Positions 21,106 to 63,767 of a stretch of 64,000 nt of DNA are shown here, one piece after another. Position numbers and translations under genes: made by a program. A model generated the notes under the pieces. That model did not search any database and was not told the origin of the DNA. It worked only from the letters and a program-made list of their open reading frames with translations. Source of the DNA: Oligoflexia bacterium (lineage in GTDB: Bacteria > Bdellovibrionota_B > Oligoflexia > Oligoflexales > JAGOVF01); assembly GCA_030432875.1 (NCBI GenBank), contig JAUILP010000007.1:1-64000 (forward strand), read 5' to 3'. Every line of letters begins with the position of its first letter. The first letter of the stretch is position 1.

Positions 21106-22575
21106 TTGATGCAAAGGAAGGCAATGAGCTTGGGTAACTACTATAACAAGATGTTAGTCCTATTTTTTCAGTTACTACTGGGTCTCCTGCTATTTAGGGC
21201 TTCAGGGGTAGCTTATAGTTTTTCGTTAAATGATGTTTTTCGCCTCTCAGAGCAAGAACATCCTCAAATCAAATCAATTTCAGAGCGCCTCGCGGCACTA
21301 AACTTAAAAAAAAATCAAGATCAACGTGTTTTTGCTTCAGAAATTAACTTCGGTGCATCCACAAGTTATCAAAATTTGCAGCGCATCACCCCTTATGGAA
21401 AAACCATGAGCCAAACATTAGATTTGGGGTGGAAAAAAAGCTTCAATCTGGGGACAGAATTAAATTTTACGAGTTCATTGGCTTTTATTGATCAGCAGCC
21501 GGGTACGGCACAGCATTTCAACGAGAGCTCATGGCAGGTTGGTATCAAGCAACCCCTTCTTAAAAATTACGCGGGTGAAGAGTTTGCTATAAATTCACGT
21601 GCCTTAAATGCTGAAATTGCTGCTCAGACTCTTATTTTGCAAGCCGAAAAACAGAGCCTTTTCTATAATATTGAACTCAAATACTGGGACTTGGTGTTTG
21701 CACTACGTGAAAAAATAATTCGTGAGGAAAGTGTGAAAAAGGCCCAAGAGTTTTTGCGCTGGACAAAAAATCGCTACGCTAACGGAGCCGCCGAAAAAGT
21801 GGATGTCCTTAACGCAAGCACGGCACTAAAAATACGAAGCCTTAGTATGCAAACTGTCCAGGACGGGATTGAAGAATCTTTTACGGCATTAAAAGCAGTG
21901 CTTCCTAAGCTGCCCGACCTCAAGGACTGGCAGGTCATTTCAGATGATTTTTTCTCCAAGAGAAATCTAGAAAACTTGTGTTTAAAATCAGATTTCGGGA
22001 CGGAAGTCACCTCACCAATTTATGCTGATGCCCTGGTTTCCAAAACAAAGGCGCTTCAGTCCTGGATTGAGGTGGAAAAAATTCGCGCTGAAGGTAAAAC
22101 CGACGTTTCTGCATTTGCCGAGTATGGTCAAAATGGCATAAAAAAAGAAGTTTTTCCTACCACTAGGGAAGCCACCAGTTTTAAACATCAAAGCTGGACT
22201 GTTGGACTCATGCTTACCCATACTTTAGATGCAAGTCTTAAGAGTGATGCTGAACGCGCTGCGGTGCTCGATGCTAATGCTGCGAAAACTACCGCACAAT
22301 TTGCTGAAGATAATAGCCTAGCGGAGTGGTCACTGCTTAGGGACAAGGTTAACCGCATGGAGAGTAATCTGACTTTAGCTAAGGAAGTTCAAGAACTTCA
22401 GGTACAAAAGACTAATGAAGAGCGGCAAAGACTTCGCATTGGTCGGTCTACCACGGCACAGCTGATTTTATTTGAGCAAGAAACCATCGAAGCTCGCCTT
22501 CAAGTGCTGCGTATACTCGCAAATATGCGAAAACTAGAAGCGCGCAGCCGCCTTTTTGTTTACGGAGGATCCTAA
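21106..22575 (+). CDS. TolC-family outer membrane efflux protein
   Basis: Coiled-coil OEP pattern, ELKYWDLVFALREKII and NRYANGAAEKVDVLNA. Confidence 0.85.
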   Translation: MMQRKAMSLGNYYNKMLVLFFQLLLGLLLFRASGVAYSFSLNDVFRLSEQEHPQIKSISERLAALNLKKNQDQRVFASEINFGASTSYQNLQRITPYGKTMSQTLDLGWKKSFNLGTELNFTSSLAFIDQQPGTAQHFNESSWQVGIKQPLLKNYAGEEFAINSRALNAEIAAQTLILQAEKQSLFYNIELKYWDLVFALREKIIREESVKKAQEFLRWTKNRYANGAAEKVDVLNASTALKIRSLSMQTVQDGIEESFTALKAVLPKLPDLKDWQVISDDFFSKRNLENLCLKSDFGTEVTSPIYADALVSKTKALQSWIEVEKIRAEGKTDVSAFAEYGQNGIKKEVFPTTREATSFKHQSWTVGLMLTHTLDASLKSDAERAAVLDANAAKTTAQFAEDNSLAEWSLLRDKVNRMESNLTLAKEVQELQVQKTNEERQRLRIGRSTTAQLILFEQETIEARLQVLRILANMRKLEARSRLFVYGGS

Positions 22576-22576
22576 A

Positions 22577-25500
22577 ATGGATTTGATTGGACTTTCCTTA
22601 CGCCGACCCGTCTTCGCTTGGATGCTCATGACAGGGCTTATCGTATTCGGTGCCATCAGCCTAAACCGTCTCGGCATAAGTCAAATGCCCGATGTCGATT
22701 TTCCCGTTCTCTCAATTAACATAACTAATGAGGGGGCTGCGCCCGAAGTTATTGAAGCAGAACTCCTCGATGAAATAGAACAGAAGCTCCTCAATATCGA
22801 GGGCATAAAAGAAATGCGCTCTAAAGCAAGCCAAGGCGCAGGAAGTATAACTCTCGACTTTGATATATCGCGTGATATCGATTTGGCCTTGCAAGAAGTT
22901 CAAAGTGCCTTAAGCCAAGTAAAGCTGCCGCAAGGGGTAGATCTTCCCGTATTGCGTAAACGCAATCCCGAAGAGCAGCCTATTATGTATATTGGCTTAG
23001 CCGCGGATAAACCTTTACGCGAGCTGCTTATATTTGCCGATGATTTTCTCCTCGATCAGTTTCGTTTTATTGACGGTGTGGGAGAGGTTGCGCTGGGCGG
23101 ATTTAGCGAACGAACCCTAAGAATTTGGCCTGACCTGAGTAAACTCAAAAAAGCACAGCTCACTATTCTTGACCTGACGGATGCCATTGACTCACAGCAT
23201 CTTGAGACAACCGCGGGTGAATATTTGGAAGGAAGTGAAGAAATCCGGGTGCGCTGGCGCGGTGAAGCCGCTAGCGTAGACGAAATTAAAGCACTCCCCA
23301 TACTCCGCCGCGGTGGCCAGCTTATTCAGGACGTTAAGTATACTCTGGGTGATTTTGCTCTGGTGGAGGATGGTCTTTCGGATATAACCCGTCTCGCGCG
23401 CAGCAACGGTAAAAATGCTGTCGCCTTTGGTGTTAGAAAACAGCGTGGTGGCAATGAAGTTGTGCTCGCAAATTTGATCAAACAAAAAATTAAGGATTTA
23501 CAGGTCACTTTACCAGAGGGCTATAAACTACAGCTCAATGTTGATTTTACCCGACCCACAGAGGCTGTTGTCGCATCAACAACGCATAAACTTTGGCTTG
23601 CCGCCCTCATTACCATACTGGTGTGTTTGCTATTTTTGGCGAGTTGGCAAAGTGCTCTAAATATTCTTTTTTCAATACCCACTTCAATTCTCGGAACTTT
23701 TATCATCATCTATTATGCGGGTTTTACTCTAAATATTTTTACCCTTCTCGCTCTAACATTAGTCATATCTATAGTTGTTGATGATGCCATAATGATTTTA
23801 GAAAATATCACCCGGCATTTTCATATGGGAAAAAATCCTTTTAATGCTGCGTACGACGGTGCCAAAGAAATTCTTCCTGCTGCAGTAGCTTCAAGTCTCG
23901 CTGTTGTGGCGATTTTTATTCCCACGGTATTTATGGATGGGGTGACGGGAAAATTTTTCTACCAATTTGGTATCACCATGTCAGCCGCTGTTTTATTGTC
24001 ATTGGTTGAGGCCGTGACGATAACACCGATGCGCGCACATGCCTTTTTAGGAGCAAGTGGCAAAACCTCACAGATTGAACTCAAAGTGGAACGTTTTTTT
24101 TATGGTCTATCACAATTTTATAGCCGATTTCTGCATCATTTTTTACGTTGGCCTGCCATGACGGTCTTTGTGGGTTTTGTTTTTTTTGCTAGTTCTCTTT
24201 TGGTTTTAAATGGCTTAAAGCGAGAATTTGTGCCCTCCCAAGATCAAAATATTCTTATCATAAGTGGAAGCTTGCCTCCTGGCACTTCCTTACAGAAAAC
24301 GGATAGCGTCGTACTAAAAATTGAAGAGATCATAAAAGAAAATCCTTTGGTAGAAAGCTATTTTGTCTCAGTCGGTGCTGGCGGCCCTAGCGGCGAGAGC
24401 AATCAATTTTTTATTCCCCTCTATTTGAAACCACGGCAGGAGCGTACACAGGACCACTTGCAAATCATGGCAGATATGCGTAAGAAACTAAGACCTATAA
24501 CAGAAGCGCGCATATCTTTGCGTGATATATCAGCGAGAAATATCACGTCCGGAAAAATTCAGCCCGTAGCCTTTAATATTCGCGGGCCTAATTTGGATAT
24601 TTTGCAAAAAAAATCTGATGAAATTATGAATCATCTTAATGATGCTGGGCTTACCGTTGATATGGACACTGATTTTAAACTGGGCGTTAAAGAGTTAGAA
24701 CTGAGGCCTGATCGTGAGGCCATGAAAAAATATGGGGTAAACGCAAGTGCGATTGGTAAAACATTGAGTGCCGCTTTAGCAAGCCTGCGCATCAATAAAA
24801 TTACCTTTGATGGAAGACGCTATGATATGCGCATTAAAATCAGAGATGAACTCGTGGGCACGCCAGAGGATATTACTTCGATATATGTGCGCAACAATTT
24901 TGGTAACTTGATCAGTTTAGACAAACTTGTCACCATAGAAAAGCAGCAAACATTTCAGTCAATCACGCGCATAAACCGGCAGCGGTCGGTCGGTGTCTTT
25001 GGCAATCTCGCGCCGGGGCAGTCGCAGGCAAGTGTATTACAAAAGGCACGCGAGTTCGCCGAATCAATATTGCCAAGCGGATATGTCTTTTCCTTAGAAG
25101 GTGCGGCAGCGGGCCTTAATGAAAGCTTTAATAGCATGATGCTTGCGTTTATCATAGGTATTATCATCGCCTACATGATTCTCGGCGTGCAGTTTAACTC
25201 TTTTGTTCACCCCATCGCCATACTTATGGCGCTCCCTTTTAGTATAAGCGGCGCGCTCTTTGCCTTGTATTTAATGGATACGTCCTTAAATCTCTACAGC
25301 ATGATTGGAATCATTGTTTTAATGGGTATTGCCAAGAAAAACTCTATTCTTTTGATCGAATTTACCAATCAAATAAGGTCTCGTAGTCCCACCCAATCTA
25401 TTAAAGACAGTCTTCTCTTTGCTTGTCCTATTAGGCTACGACCAATTCTTATGACCTCGATAGCGACGATAGCAGCGGCTGTTCCTTTAGTACTCGGTAA

Positions 25501-25642
25501 CGAGGTCGGGCAGGAGGTTCGGGCTCCCATGGGTTGGACCATTATCGGAGGCAATCTTGTATCGACAGCATTTACCTTAGTAGTCGTGCCGTGTTTTTAT
25601 CTTCTTATGACCAAATTCGAGCGAAAACCCCACAACCAATAG
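22577..25642 (+). CDS. RND-family (AcrB/HAE-1-like) efflux transporter
   Basis: SLRRPVFAWMLMTGLIVFGAISLNRLGISQMPDVDFPV; SIVVDDAIMILENITRH; GIIVLMGIAKKNSILLIEF; start ATG 22577. Confidence 0.95.
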   Translation: MDLIGLSLRRPVFAWMLMTGLIVFGAISLNRLGISQMPDVDFPVLSINITNEGAAPEVIEAELLDEIEQKLLNIEGIKEMRSKASQGAGSITLDFDISRDIDLALQEVQSALSQVKLPQGVDLPVLRKRNPEEQPIMYIGLAADKPLRELLIFADDFLLDQFRFIDGVGEVALGGFSERTLRIWPDLSKLKKAQLTILDLTDAIDSQHLETTAGEYLEGSEEIRVRWRGEAASVDEIKALPILRRGGQLIQDVKYTLGDFALVEDGLSDITRLARSNGKNAVAFGVRKQRGGNEVVLANLIKQKIKDLQVTLPEGYKLQLNVDFTRPTEAVVASTTHKLWLAALITILVCLLFLASWQSALNILFSIPTSILGTFIIIYYAGFTLNIFTLLALTLVISIVVDDAIMILENITRHFHMGKNPFNAAYDGAKEILPAAVASSLAVVAIFIPTVFMDGVTGKFFYQFGITMSAAVLLSLVEAVTITPMRAHAFLGASGKTSQIELKVERFFYGLSQFYSRFLHHFLRWPAMTVFVGFVFFASSLLVLNGLKREFVPSQDQNILIISGSLPPGTSLQKTDSVVLKIEEIIKENPLVESYFVSVGAGGPSGESNQFFIPLYLKPRQERTQDHLQIMADMRKKLRPITEARISLRDISARNITSGKIQPVAFNIRGPNLDILQKKSDEIMNHLNDAGLTVDMDTDFKLGVKELELRPDREAMKKYGVNASAIGKTLSAALASLRINKITFDGRRYDMRIKIRDELVGTPEDITSIYVRNNFGNLISLDKLVTIEKQQTFQSITRINRQRSVGVFGNLAPGQSQASVLQKAREFAESILPSGYVFSLEGAAAGLNESFNSMMLAFIIGIIIAYMILGVQFNSFVHPIAILMALPFSISGALFALYLMDTSLNLYSMIGIIVLMGIAKKNSILLIEFTNQIRSRSPTQSIKDSLLFACPIRLRPILMTSIATIAAAVPLVLGNEVGQEVRAPMGWTIIGGNLVSTAFTLVVVPCFYLLMTKFERKPHNQ

Positions 25643-28863: not shown

Positions 28864-29161
28864 TGCGGCATTTTAGGGTTTGTGTGCGTGTTGATATCAG
28901 GCTTGCCAGTAGCGGGGTGTAAGGAAAAAGTGCCAAGCATCAAGTGCTTGTCGCTGCCTATATACAAAAATCCAGTGAATACAGCACATTAAAAATGGCA
29001 GTTCCTTAAATGTAAAAATGAGGTTGTAAGCGAGTACTGTGAATGGCTAACTCAATGATTTCGGGGGTTTTAGCTGTTTACTTTTCCTCCTCAGCTTGAT
29101 ATGGAAATTGTCAGGGTGGGCTTTGGCTTAAAATTTTATCAATCAATTGAGGAACAACACA

Positions 29162-30487
29162 ATGAGATGCCATTTACCAGTTTTTTCATTACTCGCTTTT
29201 ATGTTTGCCTGTAGTGGGCCGCACGCAACTGAAAACTCTAGTGGGGTGAACGCAGTCACTTATACACCAACTAAAGTGAACACATTGGCCTTTTTTCTTA
29301 AAGCAAATCCTGGGTCAGGAAACGGGGCGATTACCCCAGCTATGGTGGGAAATAATTTTTCACCAACTGATTGCCCTGAGTGTGCTGCGGGCGACAGTGA
29401 TGGTTATGGGCCTAAACTCACTATTGTGGTCAATAATGAAACTTTTGAAGGTAAAGTAAAAATTCGCGGCGGTCTTACGCGCCAGTTTCCTAAAAAATCT
29501 TTTAGTGTAAAATTTTCGGGAAAAGAAGGGCCCTTGCTGGCTGGCATGCGGCATAACAAAATCATCCTTAATGCAAGCTATAATGACCCAACATTTTTAA
29601 GGCAGTTTATCGTTCTCAACACACAAATCCTCACCGGGGGGTATGCCTCAAACGTCGATTTTGCAGCATTTAAAGTCGCTGGAGATTTTAGCAAGAGGGG
29701 TGGCGAAAAAATTTCAAATCCCGCTCAGGTGCGTCAATCTCTCTATATTCTGTTTGAAGATTATAAAGATGGTGCTAAAGCAATCAATGGTGGTAAAAAA
29801 TCCCAAATTGTTAAAAATGAAAGTGACTGCGATTGGGGTAACTGTGGCGCAAACAACTTTTTTGAGGAGAGTGATCTTTTAAACAAGACAGCCGAAGAGC
29901 AAGCCGCGGTGCGCTCTGAAGGACAGATGGGAGCTAATATTGTCAATAGTATGTGTCATGGGGGTAATTCAATAAACATCGATAGTTATTATCGGTGGCA
30001 ATATATCAATCACTTTTTCTATGACCGTGACTCGATTACCAAGAACTATATTTTATTCCAAAAAAATGGCGGCCAATTTTACTTTTGGCACTGGGACGCT
30101 GATGCCACGATGGGCTATATGCCTGATGGGTCAATTTACGGTGATTTTGCTGATATCACAACTGATGAGCCCTGGGGGAGAAAACGCAATAGGGGTGATG
30201 CCTGGGCGGAGGGCTGTATGCGCAGTCAAGATATCAACCGTTACAAACAGCTCTACAGAGACGCTGTTGTAAACGTAATGCATCCTGACAAGGTGACTGC
30301 CTGGTTAAACGCGACGCGGATCGTTGATGTTATTAGACCCTATGCACAAGCCGATATCAATGCTTGGTCCCCCCGTCCTGGGACAAGATCGGTAAGAGAC
30401 AATAATTTTGATAACGAAGTTAATTTTATGCTCAGTAACTTCAGAGCAGTGGGCAACGCCAATATTAATAAATTTAACTTACGCTAA
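29162..30487 (+). CDS. CotH-like kinase family lipoprotein
   Basis: KVKIRGGLTRQFPKKSFSVKF, NASYNDPTFLRQFI, YFWHWDADATMGY typical of CotH proteins; lipobox FACSG. Confidence 0.82.
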   Translation: MRCHLPVFSLLAFMFACSGPHATENSSGVNAVTYTPTKVNTLAFFLKANPGSGNGAITPAMVGNNFSPTDCPECAAGDSDGYGPKLTIVVNNETFEGKVKIRGGLTRQFPKKSFSVKFSGKEGPLLAGMRHNKIILNASYNDPTFLRQFIVLNTQILTGGYASNVDFAAFKVAGDFSKRGGEKISNPAQVRQSLYILFEDYKDGAKAINGGKKSQIVKNESDCDWGNCGANNFFEESDLLNKTAEEQAAVRSEGQMGANIVNSMCHGGNSINIDSYYRWQYINHFFYDRDSITKNYILFQKNGGQFYFWHWDADATMGYMPDGSIYGDFADITTDEPWGRKRNRGDAWAEGCMRSQDINRYKQLYRDAVVNVMHPDKVTAWLNATRIVDVIRPYAQADINAWSPRPGTRSVRDNNFDNEVNFMLSNFRAVGNANINKFNLR

Positions 30488-56718: not shown

Positions 56719-57432
56719 TCAAATAAAAGTTCGCCAGTAAATCAAAGCATCAAAGGGGCGCGCAGAAATCGCTTCTACACTCGTAGGAAAAGAGACAATA
56801 CCCGCATATAGCTGTAAACCAAGGTAGCCAACCTTGGTCATTTCAAAGCCACTATCGAGGCCAAAGGCTACATCTATAGTAGAACCTTTTAGCAGTGGCG
56901 CTCCGGGCTCTATAGGTACAGCCGTATACATATAGTATCCCGTGCGCATGCCTAGAGCTAAATAATGTCCATTCGTCACGGTTGTTTTTGCGATGCCAAA
57001 GTCCCTTTTATAAAGTCGTCCCCCACCCAGGACATGATAGAGCAACCCAATTTCACCGCCCTTTCGGGTAGCTTGGCGCGTAACAGCATCAATAACGAGT
57101 TGCGGTGAGGCAAAAGAACTCCAGCGTTTTGAATAATCGCGATAAAACTGAACCCCAAGGACTAAACCGCCGATATTTGATATTTTGTTTTTGATGTCGG
57201 TGATGACCGTGAGATTGCCTCCAGTCACGAAGGCAATATCATAATCAACATCAGGATTTGCGATATCATTGCTGATAAGCGCTTCTTTGTTAGGATTATT
57301 TGCGGGACTTTTATTTTGGGCTGATAAAGAGCTAGCGAAACTCAAAAAACTGCAAAGGGCAAAAAAACAAATGGCGACCTGATAGGATTTTTTAGCCAAT
57401 ATGCATTTAAAACGTTTAAGATAATGCATCAT
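56719..57432 (-). CDS. Hypothetical exported protein
   Basis: Signal-like N-terminus; overlaps downstream of 57429-58088 ORF by 4 bp. Confidence 0.65.
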   Translation of the reverse strand: MMHYLKRFKCILAKKSYQVAICFFALCSFLSFASSLSAQNKSPANNPNKEALISNDIANPDVDYDIAFVTGGNLTVITDIKNKISNIGGLVLGVQFYRDYSKRWSSFASPQLVIDAVTRQATRKGGEIGLLYHVLGGGRLYKRDFGIAKTTVTNGHYLALGMRTGYYMYTAVPIEPGAPLLKGSTIDVAFGLDSGFEMTKVGYLGLQLYAGIVSFPTSVEAISARPFDALIYWRTFI

Positions 57433-58088
57433 TGGCTCAGCCTAATGAGTTTTTCCAGATCTGCATCCGTTGGGTCGAGGGTTTTTGCTATATTAAAAGC
57501 GCTGCTCGCTGCGGCTCTGTTGCCCTCGCTTAAAAAAGATAGCCCAGTAATGATATGTGGTGCCGCAATATTTGGCATAGCTTTACTGAGTTGCGAAGAT
57601 AAATCACGAGCTTCTTGCCAACGAGATTGGGCTAAGGCTTGATAAGCGTTTAGGATCAGCCGAAAGTTTTTGTTCTGTTCAATACTACGATCTTCACCTT
57701 GTTTTTTAGCATCCTGATTTTTTTTCTCATCCTCTTTATCTTTTTCTTCATCCGTTTTATCTTTGTCATCATTCTTTTCACCAGATTCAATTTTTTTTAG
57801 CTTGATATTTGCTTGGGTATTTTCGCCTAGCAGGTCGGTTATAATCCAGTTTTGGGTTTCCATGTTTTCTCCCCAAACCTTGATATACCCCTGATTAATG
57901 GTGTCAACGGTTACTGTTACCGGAGCTTGACCGACCAAACTTCCTTCCCCACTGGCATCGGCAAAAGGGACAATGCTGACATTTGCCGGTTCATTAGAAA
58001 AAAAAGTGATTTTTTTAACAGAACAGCTACAGGTTAAAATTACGAGAAGATAGGCTCCTAAAAATAGTATCTGACTCATATAACTCAA
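57429..58088 (-). CDS. Hypothetical lipoprotein, PEGA-like domain, charged K/D/E linker, TPR-like C-terminus
   Basis: Lipobox LTCSCSVKK; GEGSLVGQAPVTVTVDTINQGYIKVWGEN; AYQALAQSRWQEARDLSSQL... Confidence 0.65.
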   Translation of the reverse strand: MSYMSQILFLGAYLLVILTCSCSVKKITFFSNEPANVSIVPFADASGEGSLVGQAPVTVTVDTINQGYIKVWGENMETQNWIITDLLGENTQANIKLKKIESGEKNDDKDKTDEEKDKEDEKKNQDAKKQGEDRSIEQNKNFRLILNAYQALAQSRWQEARDLSSQLSKAMPNIAAPHIITGLSFLSEGNRAAASSAFNIAKTLDPTDADLEKLIRLSQ

Positions 58089-58194: not shown

Positions 58195-60213
58195 ATGACT
58201 GAAAAATTTACACATTTTAATCGAGTATTTAGCCGATATGCTTGGGCATGTTTGCTTATATTTATCATTTTGACAAATCCTCAAGAGTCTTTTTCTCAGG
58301 GCGAAAAACCTGCTAGCGATGACCAAACGCTCCTTTTGGCATCTAAATTAACCGAATTTTATGAAATTAAAGTTGAAGAAATCGTGTCGCGTCATATTCC
58401 AAAAAAACATTTTCAGGTTATCGTTGATATAACGGCAAAAGAAAAAAATGAAGAAGAGATTCCGTACCTCCCAAAAGCTTTTGGGGTTGGCGGATTAAGT
58501 AACCTCCCACCACAACTGCTTTCCAAGAGCGTTGCTAAAATTACTATCGTTGTTTATTTGGCAGAAAAATATTCGGAAACAACGAAAACTGGCATAACCA
58601 ACCTCGTTAAAAGTAAACTCAGTCTAAATTTGGAACGAGGCGATAGTATTAATTTTGAAATGTTTGCCATCGAAAATATTAGTGACAATGAAGAATATGA
58701 ATCAAAGATACGTGATGTCAAAAGTGATCTTGCTGTAGCCGAGGACAGAGTTTCTAGCATAACTGGTGAGCGTAACGAACTAAAGCAAGAGCTGTCCACT
58801 GCAAAGGAAAAATTAAAAAGCATTGAGGAAGAAACAGGAAAATCCCCAGAAGCTCTTATCCAAAAATTTAAAATTCCATTTTTTGTGGTGATGGGCACTC
58901 TTATCCTTGGTCTTTTGCTCGTTTTTACCCTGTCTATGAAAATACTTTCTGGATCTATCAAATCAGTCGGTGGTGCCTTTGGTGGCATCGGTGACTCTAT
59001 TCGCAATATTGCCTCAGCACTAGAAAAAGTTGGCGGTAGGAAGCCTGAAGAAAAAGAATCTTCTCAAAATGATGCTGCGGGAAAACAAGTAGCCGGAGCC
59101 TCTGGAGGGGGTGGTGATCAAGGCAAAAATACACAGACTTCGATGGATATGAAAACTTTACAAGATAGGGTTTTGCAGCTCCATGAAGAAATCGTCGCAA
59201 AAATAAATGAAAAAACCTTGCCCTTAGTCGTTCTCCATGTGAGCACCTTGCTCAACAATCCAGTTAGTATTGCAAAAGGCGTCGTAAGTTTAGAAATACT
59301 TGGAAAAGATATGGCAAATGATATTTTTAAGAGACTGTCTTACTATTCTCAAGAAATTATCATACGTTTCCTGAATCAAGCCAATTATGGTGATAAAACC
59401 AAGCTTGAAGTTATGATGGAAGCGGGCGAAGAACTCAATACAAAGCTTATGGCTGGAGGGTTTGAATCATCCCGCGTAAATCTTTCTTATGAAGTGTCTG
59501 AAAAACTTCTTCTACTTGAGGAAAAAGATCTTTTTACCGTTGTTCAAAAATGTGATGACGATGTGCTTCAACGCTTATTTGTTTACTTTGATGCCGCAAA
59601 AATTTCGCGACTTCTTGCGGAACTAAAAAAGCAAAATATCAACAACCTAGAGAGATATATTTCAGCTCTCCTAAATGTTCCTCATAAGCAAAATGATAAA
59701 ACATTGGACGGGGCAATTGTAGAAATCCTGACCGAACTTTTTGTAGAAAAAGCACGCGATCTCTATGGTCCCTACCTTGAGGTCTACCGAGATGTTATCG
59801 AAAATGCAGGTGAAGAGCTTGACGAGCAAATTATTAATGTTCTCTCTCGTGGAAACGAGCGAATTCGGGACTATTTGGCAACTAGGGTCGTCACCTTTCA
59901 AACATTCTTTAAAATACCGCCTAAGAATCTTTCAACGATAGTTGATGGCCTAAGCAACAGAGAAATTGCTGCGCTTGCTTCTGGAATAGCACCGGAACAG
60001 CGAACCCAAATATTGGGTCAGGTCTCTGAACGGCGTCGTCCGTTAATTGACGAAGAAATCGAAGGTATTGAAGCTATGGAAGAAACTACCCGTAGCGAAG
60101 AAGTTCGCAAAGTCAAACAGCGCATCGTGAGTATAATGAAAGTTGAAATCACCCCCGAAGTTCTTAAAAGTATCGCGGCAGAAAATGCCAGTTCTTCCCC
60201 TCAGGCTGCTTGA
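58195..60213 (+). CDS. FliF (C-terminal ring/TM2)-FliG-like fusion protein
   Basis: AKITIVVYLAEKYSETTKTGITNLVKSKLSLNLERGDSINFEMFAIEN resembles FliF before TM2; TM FFVVMGTLILGLLLVFTLSMKIL; C-terminus FFKIPPKNLSTIVDGLSNREIAALASGIAPEQRTQILGQVSERRRPLIDEEIE...EEVRKVKQRIVSIM resembles FliG-C; motAB follow. Confidence 0.7.
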   Translation: MTEKFTHFNRVFSRYAWACLLIFIILTNPQESFSQGEKPASDDQTLLLASKLTEFYEIKVEEIVSRHIPKKHFQVIVDITAKEKNEEEIPYLPKAFGVGGLSNLPPQLLSKSVAKITIVVYLAEKYSETTKTGITNLVKSKLSLNLERGDSINFEMFAIENISDNEEYESKIRDVKSDLAVAEDRVSSITGERNELKQELSTAKEKLKSIEEETGKSPEALIQKFKIPFFVVMGTLILGLLLVFTLSMKILSGSIKSVGGAFGGIGDSIRNIASALEKVGGRKPEEKESSQNDAAGKQVAGASGGGGDQGKNTQTSMDMKTLQDRVLQLHEEIVAKINEKTLPLVVLHVSTLLNNPVSIAKGVVSLEILGKDMANDIFKRLSYYSQEIIIRFLNQANYGDKTKLEVMMEAGEELNTKLMAGGFESSRVNLSYEVSEKLLLLEEKDLFTVVQKCDDDVLQRLFVYFDAAKISRLLAELKKQNINNLERYISALLNVPHKQNDKTLDGAIVEILTELFVEKARDLYGPYLEVYRDVIENAGEELDEQIINVLSRGNERIRDYLATRVVTFQTFFKIPPKNLSTIVDGLSNREIAALASGIAPEQRTQILGQVSERRRPLIDEEIEGIEAMEETTRSEEVRKVKQRIVSIMKVEITPEVLKSIAAENASSSPQAA

Positions 60214-60362: not shown

Positions 60363-61151
60363 ATGAATTTTACCACAGCGCTCGGATTTATTACTGCATC
60401 AGCCGTTTTTATGGCCACCGCAATAATGTCTCTTAAAGATCTTAAGGTGCTTCTTGATGCTCATGCTGCCGTTATTGTTATCGGCGGCACAATTGCGGTT
60501 ACGCTGATCAGTTTCCCCGCGTCGCGTATTTTCACTCTGCTGAAAGTATTTTTTAAGCGTATGTTCGGAGCGAATAAGCAGAATTATTTGGGTATCATCG
60601 ATGAAATTATCACACTCTCTAAGGCTTACCGCAAAGGTTTTAGTGCCTTTGAGGCAGCAATCAAGGAGATAAAACACCCATTTTTGCGCGACGGAGCTAG
60701 TGTACTTTTTTGGGTTCAGTCAGACGTAAGTCCAGATGCTCTTCGGGATCTCCTGGAAACACGGGTTAAAACACATTACAAACTCTATATGGATGAAGCG
60801 AAAGTATTTAAAACCCTCTCTAAATTTCCTCCAGCTCTAGGGCTTATGGGGACTTCGGTGGGTATGATCACTTTGCTGCAGTCTCTAGGCGGCGCGGATA
60901 GCCAAAACCAGGTTGGGCCCGCTATGGCTATTGCTCTGGTGGCAACTTTATACGGTCTGGTCTTTGCTAACTTCATTTTTATCCCTATTGGAGAAAATCT
61001 CACCGCGCAAACCCAAGAAGACCTAATTGCCCGAAGTATCGTGGTCGAGGGAATTATGCTTATTCAAGCCCAAATGCCAACAAAATTTATCGAAGAAAAG
61101 GTGAAGTCATATTTACTGCCGAGTCAAAGGGAAGTAAAAGCAAAAAAATAG
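60363..61151 (+). CDS. motA: MotA/TolQ/ExbB-family flagellar-type stator protein
   Basis: HAAVIVIGGTIAVTLISFPASRI, KFPPALGLMGTSVGMITLLQSLGG, GPAMAIALVATLYGLVFANFIFIPIGENL. Confidence 0.93.
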   Translation: MNFTTALGFITASAVFMATAIMSLKDLKVLLDAHAAVIVIGGTIAVTLISFPASRIFTLLKVFFKRMFGANKQNYLGIIDEIITLSKAYRKGFSAFEAAIKEIKHPFLRDGASVLFWVQSDVSPDALRDLLETRVKTHYKLYMDEAKVFKTLSKFPPALGLMGTSVGMITLLQSLGGADSQNQVGPAMAIALVATLYGLVFANFIFIPIGENLTAQTQEDLIARSIVVEGIMLIQAQMPTKFIEEKVKSYLLPSQREVKAKK

Positions 61152-61162
61152 GTAACTAAGCA

Positions 61163-62008
61163 ATGAGTTCTCCCTGGGAAGATCACCATGAAGAAGAAGA
61201 AGGCGAAGGCTGGCTAGTATCATATGCCGATATGGTCACGCTGCTGTTCGGATTTTTTGTTATTTTATGGACCCTTTCCCGCTCTGATGATAAACGCTAC
61301 GAACAAATGAGCCAGAAAATTGTTGAAGCCTTTACCGGAAAATCCCACCATAAGTCATCTGAAATTGATTCTGGTTTTGTCAGCGAATTTAGGCAGCTAC
61401 GCGCATTTCGCCTTCTTGTTGAACGCATAAGCCTCGGAGAAGATGTCGATGCTGCTACAAGGAAAATTGAAAAATTTGTCAACCAAGAAACTGAAGCTGA
61501 AAATGCTAAAAAATTTTTGGACAAACGGCTTACCAGCGCGGATCAGGAGGAAGTTAATATCATCAAGAAATTCGACGAAAATGCTGGAGCAGAAATCCCA
61601 TTTATAGAAATCATTTTACCTGACCGAACCTTATTTGCTCCAGGAAGTGATGAGTTGATGCAATTTTCCCAAAAAAAAGTCATTGCTTTAGCAGCCGATA
61701 TAAAAAAAATTCCTAATCTTTTGGGCATTGAAATCGTCGGCCACAGCGATAGCACCCCACCAGGTACAGGCGGTAAATTTAGGGATAATTTTGCCTTATC
61801 CTCTGCGCGAGCGGGTTCTGTCGCGCGGGCCCTCATATCAGGCGGAATTGATGAAAATTTACTCTATATCCGTGGCGTGGCGCACTTAGATCCCCTTATG
61901 GATGAAAATAATCCGAGTCCCGGCTTGCGGGAAAAAGCTCGAGAAAAAAACAGACGCGTACAAATAATTTTACGGCGGAAAGCACAGATAAATGGCAAAG
62001 GTGAATAA
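61163..62008 (+). CDS. motB: MotB/OmpA-domain stator protein
   Basis: EEGEGWLVSYADMVTLLFGFFVILWTLSR (stator Asp) and OmpA-like IEIVGHSDSTPP...NFALSSARAGSVARAL...NRRVQIIL. Confidence 0.94.
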   Translation: MSSPWEDHHEEEEGEGWLVSYADMVTLLFGFFVILWTLSRSDDKRYEQMSQKIVEAFTGKSHHKSSEIDSGFVSEFRQLRAFRLLVERISLGEDVDAATRKIEKFVNQETEAENAKKFLDKRLTSADQEEVNIIKKFDENAGAEIPFIEIILPDRTLFAPGSDELMQFSQKKVIALAADIKKIPNLLGIEIVGHSDSTPPGTGGKFRDNFALSSARAGSVARALISGGIDENLLYIRGVAHLDPLMDENNPSPGLREKAREKNRRVQIILRRKAQINGKGE

Positions 62009-63767
62009 AGCAGAGAACAAAAGAATTGCTCCCTTTATTCCATCACTTAACTGGTTGGTAATTGGCTCTACTGCGTCTATTTTAATCATTTTTATGTTGA
62101 TCGCAGGTTACCATAGCACCCGCGTCCTCATGACAAATAAGCTTCAAGATCTATTTGCCATTACTTATCTTGAACTAGACAAAAAAGTCCAAAGTCTTGC
62201 TTCAGACTTACGGCTCCTCAAAAAAAATGCGGCCCTGCTTTATAGTCTTGATTTAAAAAAGGGAGCCATGGTTCTTGCGAGTGGTTCTGGTCCAAAATAT
62301 ATAAAGCTTAAGGATAGCGGTCTCGACAACCTTCTGGAAAACGAAGATTTTGCTATTTTAAAGATTAGGAAGCACCTTTTTCTAGGCACTTGGATAGAAA
62401 ATAAAAATCAGATTGCGCGAGATCCTAAGATATCAGTTAAAAACGCTGAGAAAATATTTTCACTATCGCCACTAAGCGCAAGGGATCTTAAAAATTATTT
62501 TTACGTTGATCAAGTTGGCTCCTTGGTTTATGTCGCCAATACGTATGGAGACTTGATTTACAGTTCTTCAGCCAAGGTAAAAACCAAGGATTTTGAAAGT
62601 CGGCCCTTAGTACAAAAATTTATCAATCATCCGCTTTCCCAGGGACAACTAGAGTTCGTAAGCGATGAAGGCATAAATTATTTGGGCTTTTTTGCCCAGA
62701 TTCCTGGTAGCAATTTGGTTCTTTTCCTAGAAAACCCTTCCCAAGAAGTTCTGGCAAGCATCGGTGAAGTCAAAAAAAATCTTTTTTTATATTTCCTCGG
62801 ATTTTTGTTTGTGGCTTTGGCACTTATTCAGTGGCCGTTAATGAGGATAAAAAAAGCATTACGTGGTGCAGCGCGACTCGTCAATGCGCGGATATCAGGT
62901 GATCAATTTGCTATTTTCCCCCATCCGCCTATTTTAGAGATATTAGAACTCGAGAACAGAGTGGAAGCATTGGTAGAAAGTTACACAAATAATTTAAAGC
63001 AAAAAAATGCAGACCTTTTAGCTCATAAAAACTCGCGCATAGAAGAGTTTTTGAAAGACCAAAAAATAAGAGATAAACAAGAAATTGCTGCTATTTTAGA
63101 TATAAATACTCGCCAGGAAAAAATTTCAGCTAATGCTATAAAAATTCCATACCTGAATTCGGCTCCAGACTATATCTTTGTAAACCACCGATCGAGGCGC
63201 ATGTGTTTAGGGATTATTGATTTTCGCTCACCGCCATTTGAATCTGGTTTTATATCATTTGTAAGCGGAATGTTTTTGGATTATTTTCCAGAAAATGATC
63301 ACAAAGATAATTTTGGCTTTGACAGAATGGCCGCAGCGATAAAGGCTAAATTTTTTCAACAGGAAAGCTTTAGCATAGGCTTAGTAGATATAGATCTTGA
63401 AATCAATAAAGCCAGCGTATATATACTGGGAAATGTATATGCCCTCTGTAGCGCCAATAATAACAGATTTCAAGAACTACCTTTCTCACCTAGCGCTCCT
63501 CTTGGATACCATGACAATATGTCCCTCAAAGCACATGTTATTCCATTAGATGGTAGCACTGAGAAAATAGTAATAGCCACAAAAGGACTGGGGACTTTAT
63601 TTGCAAAGGATAAAACAATCACAGGTAAGAGAAAGTTTACCAAAGAGATCTCACAATTATATCACCAAGACTCCCAAATTTTTGTGCAAAATATACAAAA
63701 AGAAGCAAGCAAGAAGGAAGAAATCTCAGCGAATATGAGTTTAATAACCATAGATGTGAAAAAATAG
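61992..63767 (+). CDS. Membrane sensor protein with degenerate SpoIIE/PP2C-like C-terminal domain
   Basis: Two TM helices around an extracytoplasmic domain; C-terminus ESFSIGLVDIDLEINKASVYILGNVYALCS...SAPLGY...IVIATKGLGTLF resembles SpoIIE architecture; overlaps motB by 17 bp. Confidence 0.6.
   Translation: MAKVNKAENKRIAPFIPSLNWLVIGSTASILIIFMLIAGYHSTRVLMTNKLQDLFAITYLELDKKVQSLASDLRLLKKNAALLYSLDLKKGAMVLASGSGPKYIKLKDSGLDNLLENEDFAILKIRKHLFLGTWIENKNQIARDPKISVKNAEKIFSLSPLSARDLKNYFYVDQVGSLVYVANTYGDLIYSSSAKVKTKDFESRPLVQKFINHPLSQGQLEFVSDEGINYLGFFAQIPGSNLVLFLENPSQEVLASIGEVKKNLFLYFLGFLFVALALIQWPLMRIKKALRGAARLVNARISGDQFAIFPHPPILEILELENRVEALVESYTNNLKQKNADLLAHKNSRIEEFLKDQKIRDKQEIAAILDINTRQEKISANAIKIPYLNSAPDYIFVNHRSRRMCLGIIDFRSPPFESGFISFVSGMFLDYFPENDHKDNFGFDRMAAAIKAKFFQQESFSIGLVDIDLEINKASVYILGNVYALCSANNNRFQELPFSPSAPLGYHDNMSLKAHVIPLDGSTEKIVIATKGLGTLFAKDKTITGKRKFTKEISQLYHQDSQIFVQNIQKEASKKEEISANMSLITIDVKK

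Follow-up and report, generated by a model that had tools for sequence, protein, structure and literature searches.

Myxococcus AglRQS-type gliding stators belong to the MotA/TolQ superfamily and work outside the flagellum with envelope partners. Zorya (ZorAB) also has a MotAB-like stator outside the flagellum, and we know of no FliG-type rotor in that system. SpoIIIAG and SctJ (EscJ) share an RBM-type ring-building fold and have neither a FliG region nor a MotAB partner. Stators have been divided into a flagellar group and a generic (ExbBD/TolQR-like) group; AglRS falls in the generic group, and the group bearing a plug and an OmpA domain is described as flagellar (PMC12505986). Chlamydia has been reported to have a natural single-chain fusion of FliF-type and FliG-type parts, in which the RBM3/SpoIIIAG-like domain is missing, the SctJ-type region survives in part and a FliG M-like part is present (PMC4768692). 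A FliG paralogue has been mentioned in Leptospira (PMC13066512). No description of an RBM3-TM-FliG protein accompanied by MotAB was found in the literature searched, where most subscription journals were not covered.

The window is a stretch of 64,000 nucleotides (positions 1 to 64,000 of contig JAUILP010000007.1) from the draft assembly of an Oligoflexia bacterium. Positions 58195-60213 of its forward strand hold a complete open reading frame that is a genuine gene, encoding a protein of 672 aa, the proposed rotor, which was assigned as an RBM3-TM-FliG fusion from the ORF together with Pfam, profile and fold matches. The domains follow in the order signal peptide, RBM3-like periplasmic domain (about aa 42-169, 58318-58701), coiled-coil-like spacer recognised in the sequence (about aa 166-215, 58690-58839), one transmembrane (TM) helix (about aa 229-247, 58879-58935), Gly-rich linker and cytoplasmic FliG-like region (aa 317-672, 59143-60210), all on the plus strand. 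The N-terminus was judged signal-like by eye, the single strong TM came from hydropathy, and the C-terminal region is all-helical. An earlier note on this DNA had described the same layout, and the ORF, hydropathy and AlphaFold models bore it out; the models were built with the window protein and four homologues as input. FliF has two TMs and a cytoplasmic N-terminus. Across the fusion family the coiled-coil spacer ranged from 29 to 174 aa, and the size of the torque (FliG) part was nearly constant. The proteins ended in Ala or Ser in 27 of 29 cases versus 15% of other ORFs (60205-60210 at the end of the window gene; binomial p = 2e-20, computed ignoring relatedness).

The earlier note had read the protein as a FliF-FliG-like fusion in a single ORF, and this reading stood: profile and fold support the FliG half, and chiefly the predicted fold supports the FliF half. 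Pfam found FliG_C (PF01706) at aa 557-649 with E = 6.6e-9, scoring 36.5 bits where the cutoff is 23.3, and the domain matched 13 of 15 fusion members. A search of the PDB with the single window sequence reached FliG at E = 1e-4, and a profile made from the cytoplasmic parts of five members matched FliG M+C structures at E = 1.5e-11. The AlphaFold model of aa 317-672 had a mean pLDDT of 82.6, and its best 15 fold matches in the PDB were all FliG, with an alignment of about 335 columns and many matches exceeding 300 columns. TM-scores of the whole cytoplasmic region against FliG were low (0.2-0.4), which was put down to flexible packing of the predicted domains; the isolated C domain did better (TM-score 0.78 by target length). 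The resemblance noticed earlier in the last ~120 aa was thus real at FliG_C but drawn too narrowly, as it covers M+C at the level of sequence and, from the predicted fold, probably N+M+C. Pfam FliG_M gave no match in the window fusion and scored above cutoff in L030 and in L175-L177, which are fusions considered below.

Of 12 canonical FliGs of the phylum, 11 have EHPQ, the FliM-binding motif of FliG; all 31 fusions examined lack it. In an alignment with the phylum's canonical FliGs, R613 and E620/E621 of the window protein fell at E. coli FliG R281 and D288/D289, the partners of MotA E98 and R90 (PMC12505986). Conservation of the charged torque-helix residues, which the earlier note proposed to check, was found in part: all 10 close members have the first acidic position and six of them have R613, and the equivalent of FliG K264 was lost. 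Torque residues varied more in distant fusion members than in close ones.

By sequence, the likeness of the periplasmic domain to FliF is weak. In a search of the organism's own genome, PF08345 matched the window fusion below threshold (58528-58656; 12.5 bits, E = 0.4); in the phylum as a whole PF08345 gave 11 sub-threshold matches, of which seven were to fusion ORFs, each of these seven at profile positions 77-147. Alignment of the N-terminal domain to FliF with hhalign gave P = 0.0015 and a probability of 16%, and a PDB profile search with this domain gave no FliF match. The AlphaFold model of aa 42-169 had a mean pLDDT of 74 (83-90 in most core blocks) and a predicted order of helix-strand-strand-helix-strand. 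When this model was compared with PDB folds (Foldseek), the best 17 matches were all FliF RBM3 (top E = 1.3e-4), with OsmC-type folds and EscJ ranking after them and weaker. The identification as an RBM3-like domain of the FliF kind holds up because of this predicted fold and because a distant homologue, L176, has a near-cutoff match to the C-terminal FliF family (YscJ_FliF_C, E = 7.4e-5, 23.7 bits against a cutoff of 23.8). The absence of RBM1 and RBM2, claimed earlier, agreed with a single RBM-sized domain (aa 42-165) before the TM and an hhalign probability of 0.4% to FliF RBM1-2. The expectation of RBM3 with a beta-collar was right for RBM3 only, since the AlphaFold model lacks the beta-collar insert and has a short low-confidence loop between two strands instead. 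Compared with the Chlamydia fusion, the protein described here keeps RBM3, has lost RBM1/2, carries M+C (probably N+M+C) and has MotAB genes adjacent.

The first two genes after the fusion, both on the plus strand, encode a MotA/PomA-like stator subunit (60363-61151) and a MotB-like subunit (61163-62008), and the statement in the earlier note that no flagellar genes lie nearby is contradicted by this pair. The MotA-like protein matched PF01618 (E = 6.5e-21), PomA/MotP/MotA models and solved MotA (E = 1.5e-34). The MotB-like protein was assigned from Pfam, model matches and a motif pattern, with a plug region, a SYAD ion-binding motif and an OmpA-type peptidoglycan-binding domain. Both scored below the NCBIfam equivalog cutoffs. 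Judged by the Arg/Glu pair, the plug, the membrane Asp and the OmpA domain in their sequences, they are of the flagellar type; the Arg-Glu pair was retained in most MotAs of close members, and a simple pattern for the ion-binding Asp motif was found in 14 of 20 MotBs. In the MotA tree, one side (97/98) consisted of the phylum's flagellar MotAs, and TolQ-like proteins were separate (100/99). The system's MotAs did not group with the flagellar MotAs of the phylum, and a single clade of them was not supported. The adjacent MotA and MotB genes make the idea of a rotor stronger. The locus resembles the Agl gliding machinery in having a MotA/TolQ-superfamily stator outside the flagellum together with envelope partners; in contrast to AglRS, its MotA and MotB are flagellar-type with plug and OmpA domain, and it has a putative FliG-type rotor. 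Identity with Zorya was ruled out, as ZorA models gave no match to the window MotA-like protein and the MotB-like protein matched ZorB models only weakly. A further MotA/MotB-like pair without an adjoining fusion gene is present elsewhere in the same genome (L038:7347-8837, G000 contig C104), and its MotA forms a long branch in the tree.

The next plus-strand gene (61992-63767) encodes a protein that has two TMs, by hydropathy, and a divergent phosphatase domain of the SpoIIE type (PF07228 E = 0.0012); orthologues of this protein have HAMP and a clear SpoIIE domain (PF07228 E = 1e-30 to 1e-40). Upstream of the fusion and divergently transcribed is a lipoprotein (57429-58088, minus strand) that is conserved beside the fusion, with TPR/PEGA in its orthologues. 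Adjoining it is a small secreted, probably outer-membrane, protein (56719-57432, minus strand), also conserved beside the fusion, for which no Pfam match was found. A secreted protein at about 63775-65010, just beyond the window end on the contig, is a further regular member of the set; it looked FecR-like by eye and had no Pfam match. The set shares with the flagellar rotor and stator an RBM3-like domain, a FliG-like region with some of the torque charges, MotA and a peptidoglycan-binding MotB. It differs in having one chain in place of FliF plus FliG, in lacking RBM1/RBM2, the beta-collar insert and EHPQ, and in having a lipoprotein and outer-membrane partners instead of export, rod, hook and filament genes. 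Elsewhere in the window, an outer-membrane efflux protein (OEP, E = 1e-11) adjoins an AcrB-family pump (E = 1.1e-249) at 21106-25642, and a CotH-kinase-domain protein (E = 3.3e-23) is encoded at 29147-30487.

The window genome has five fusions, on contigs C95 (the window), C54, C93, C125 and C141. MotA lies near the fusion on C95, C54, C93 and C125, with a recognised MotB beside it on the first three of these and not on C125. The C141-type subfamily, roughly 730-830 aa, has no MotAB close by. This second subfamily comprises L030:7511-9874, L118, L131, L132, L133, L135 and L137; by eye, the N-terminal part of L030:7511-9874 seems to hold two RBM-type repeats, and its FliG_M and FliG_C are above cutoffs. 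Searches with profiles derived from the window plus three relatives picked up all or part of the gene set near fusions from other families within the order and class, with some variation in gene order and distance; in G036, an Oligoflexus-like MAG, the genes for MotAB, the lipoprotein, the outer-membrane protein and the SpoIIE-type protein are ~8-9 kb from the fusion. Named relatives include Oligoflexus sp., and the phylum was taken to be GTDB Bdellovibrionota_B. The fusion is under purifying selection, with dN/dS of about 0.09 and 0.06 for two close pairs, in which dS is near saturation.

A first scan of genome contigs with a single fusion protein as query gave no match, nor did a search of a plasmid collection. 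A broad-profile search of 383 genomes found fusion-sized proteins outside the phylum as well. In four of these (L174-L177) the N-terminus is signal-like, and an RBM3-like segment, a TM and a FliG region are present; L177 is truncated where its contig ends, and part of L174 is masked. L175 has FliG_N, FliG_M and FliG_C all above cutoffs, and in L174 and L175 a PEGA/TPR-like lipoprotein adjoins the fusion. At L176:3-2225, TPR repeats are added at the C-terminus of the fusion, which is followed by a 1282-aa protein with no clear Pfam match and then by MotA and MotB.

Two carriers bear on how the system relates to the flagellum. Neither G003, a 96% complete draft with the full gene set, nor G021, a 93% complete draft with a short fusion subtype plus MotA and MotB, had FliF, FlhA or FliP above cutoff; for FliP, G003 gave no more than a FliP-like fragment that scores 20 bits and contains a stop. 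Because the gene set also occurs in such relatives without detected core flagellum genes, it has the appearance of a flagellum-type rotary motor that serves a different purpose. On balance we consider it probable that the locus encodes a self-contained rotary machine, ion-driven and of the flagellar type, that is separate from the flagellum.

The set could instead serve the flagellum as an extra or alternative rotor and stator that joins or surrounds the basal body, for example altering torque. FliF and FlhA are present in most of the other carriers, the window genome has FliF and a canonical FliG (its draft gave no FlhA or FliP match), and the stators are flagellar-type. Against this stand G003 and G021, the lack of EHPQ in the fusions, the recurrence of the lipoprotein and outer-membrane partners, and the several divergent copies in the window genome, each apart from the flagellar genes found. 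An accessory role is unlikely in our judgement. A second FliG-sized protein is also encoded in the window genome apart from other flagellar genes (L029:8956-9930, G000 contig C40; FliG_C 84.9 bits).

Flagellar stator units respond to load, and it is conceivable that the complex is a sensor and not a motor, in which MotAB ion flow and a FliG/RBM3 ring would register load on the envelope or contact with a surface, the signal being carried by the SpoIIE-type phosphatase. The two-TM HAMP-SpoIIE-type protein is indeed a regular member of the set, but many fusion copies have no SpoIIE gene close by, and the stator and torque-site residues, which a pure sensor would not need, are largely kept. We regard this reading as quite improbable.

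It is very unlikely that the protein has no true relation to FliF or FliG and combines an MgtE_N-like or other helical-repeat domain with an unrelated N-terminal alpha/beta domain. MgtE_N did match the window fusion in Pfam (26.2 bits against a cutoff of 25.9), and OsmC-type folds followed FliF in the fold search. MgtE_N was nevertheless ruled out as the identity of the helical part, since the best 15 folds were FliG and MgtE appeared in none of the 50 listed; the FliG_C matches among the members, the adjacent MotAB and the single chain of L176, which matches FliF_C, FliG_M, FliG_C and TPRs, are likewise contrary to this explanation. That the locus is a chance fusion among leftover, decaying flagellar genes is scarcely credible and is disfavoured by dN/dS and synteny: the fusions share only about 20-30% sequence identity and G003 retains its interrupted FliP-like fragment, but the long ORFs are intact, the gene set is conserved in distant families with multiple copies per genome, and the same architecture is found outside the phylum.

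For the self-contained rotary machine that we favour, the following arrangement is proposed. The fusion protein would assemble into a ring in the inner membrane, each subunit crossing it by one TM, and may reasonably be expected to form a rotor like the MS/C-ring, as the earlier note had suggested. Its RBM3 domains would form a periplasmic ring and the coiled coils a shaft or spacer, while the covalently attached FliG parts would make up a cytoplasmic torque ring without FliM. The neighbouring MotAB, anchored to peptidoglycan, would conduct ions and drive this ring, whose motion would reach the lipoprotein of the outer membrane and that protein's partner through the periplasmic part, with the SpoIIE-type protein regulating the machine. 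From its gene neighbours, the system probably acts on the outer membrane, and its output would likely be a force exerted there or on the cell surface. Gliding-type surface movement is the suggestion for this output that we prefer, a tentative one that we hold to be somewhat doubtful.

We would give roughly even chances to the broader proposal that such loci represent a separate class of bacterial rotary machine, present in several deep lineages and often multicopy, with a single-polypeptide RBM3-TM-FliG rotor that is driven by MotAB, coupled to the outer membrane and without export apparatus, rod, hook or filament. The carriers without detected core flagellum genes make the independence of the system directly testable. 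If the proposal is true, the flagellar motor would have a new use, in a FliG-bearing rotor that works with plug- and OmpA-type stators outside the flagellum. A natural minimal rotor, with RBM3 and FliG in one chain, would be a model for torque generation and the matching of ring symmetries, and the fusion system may inform the origin or reuse of flagellar parts.
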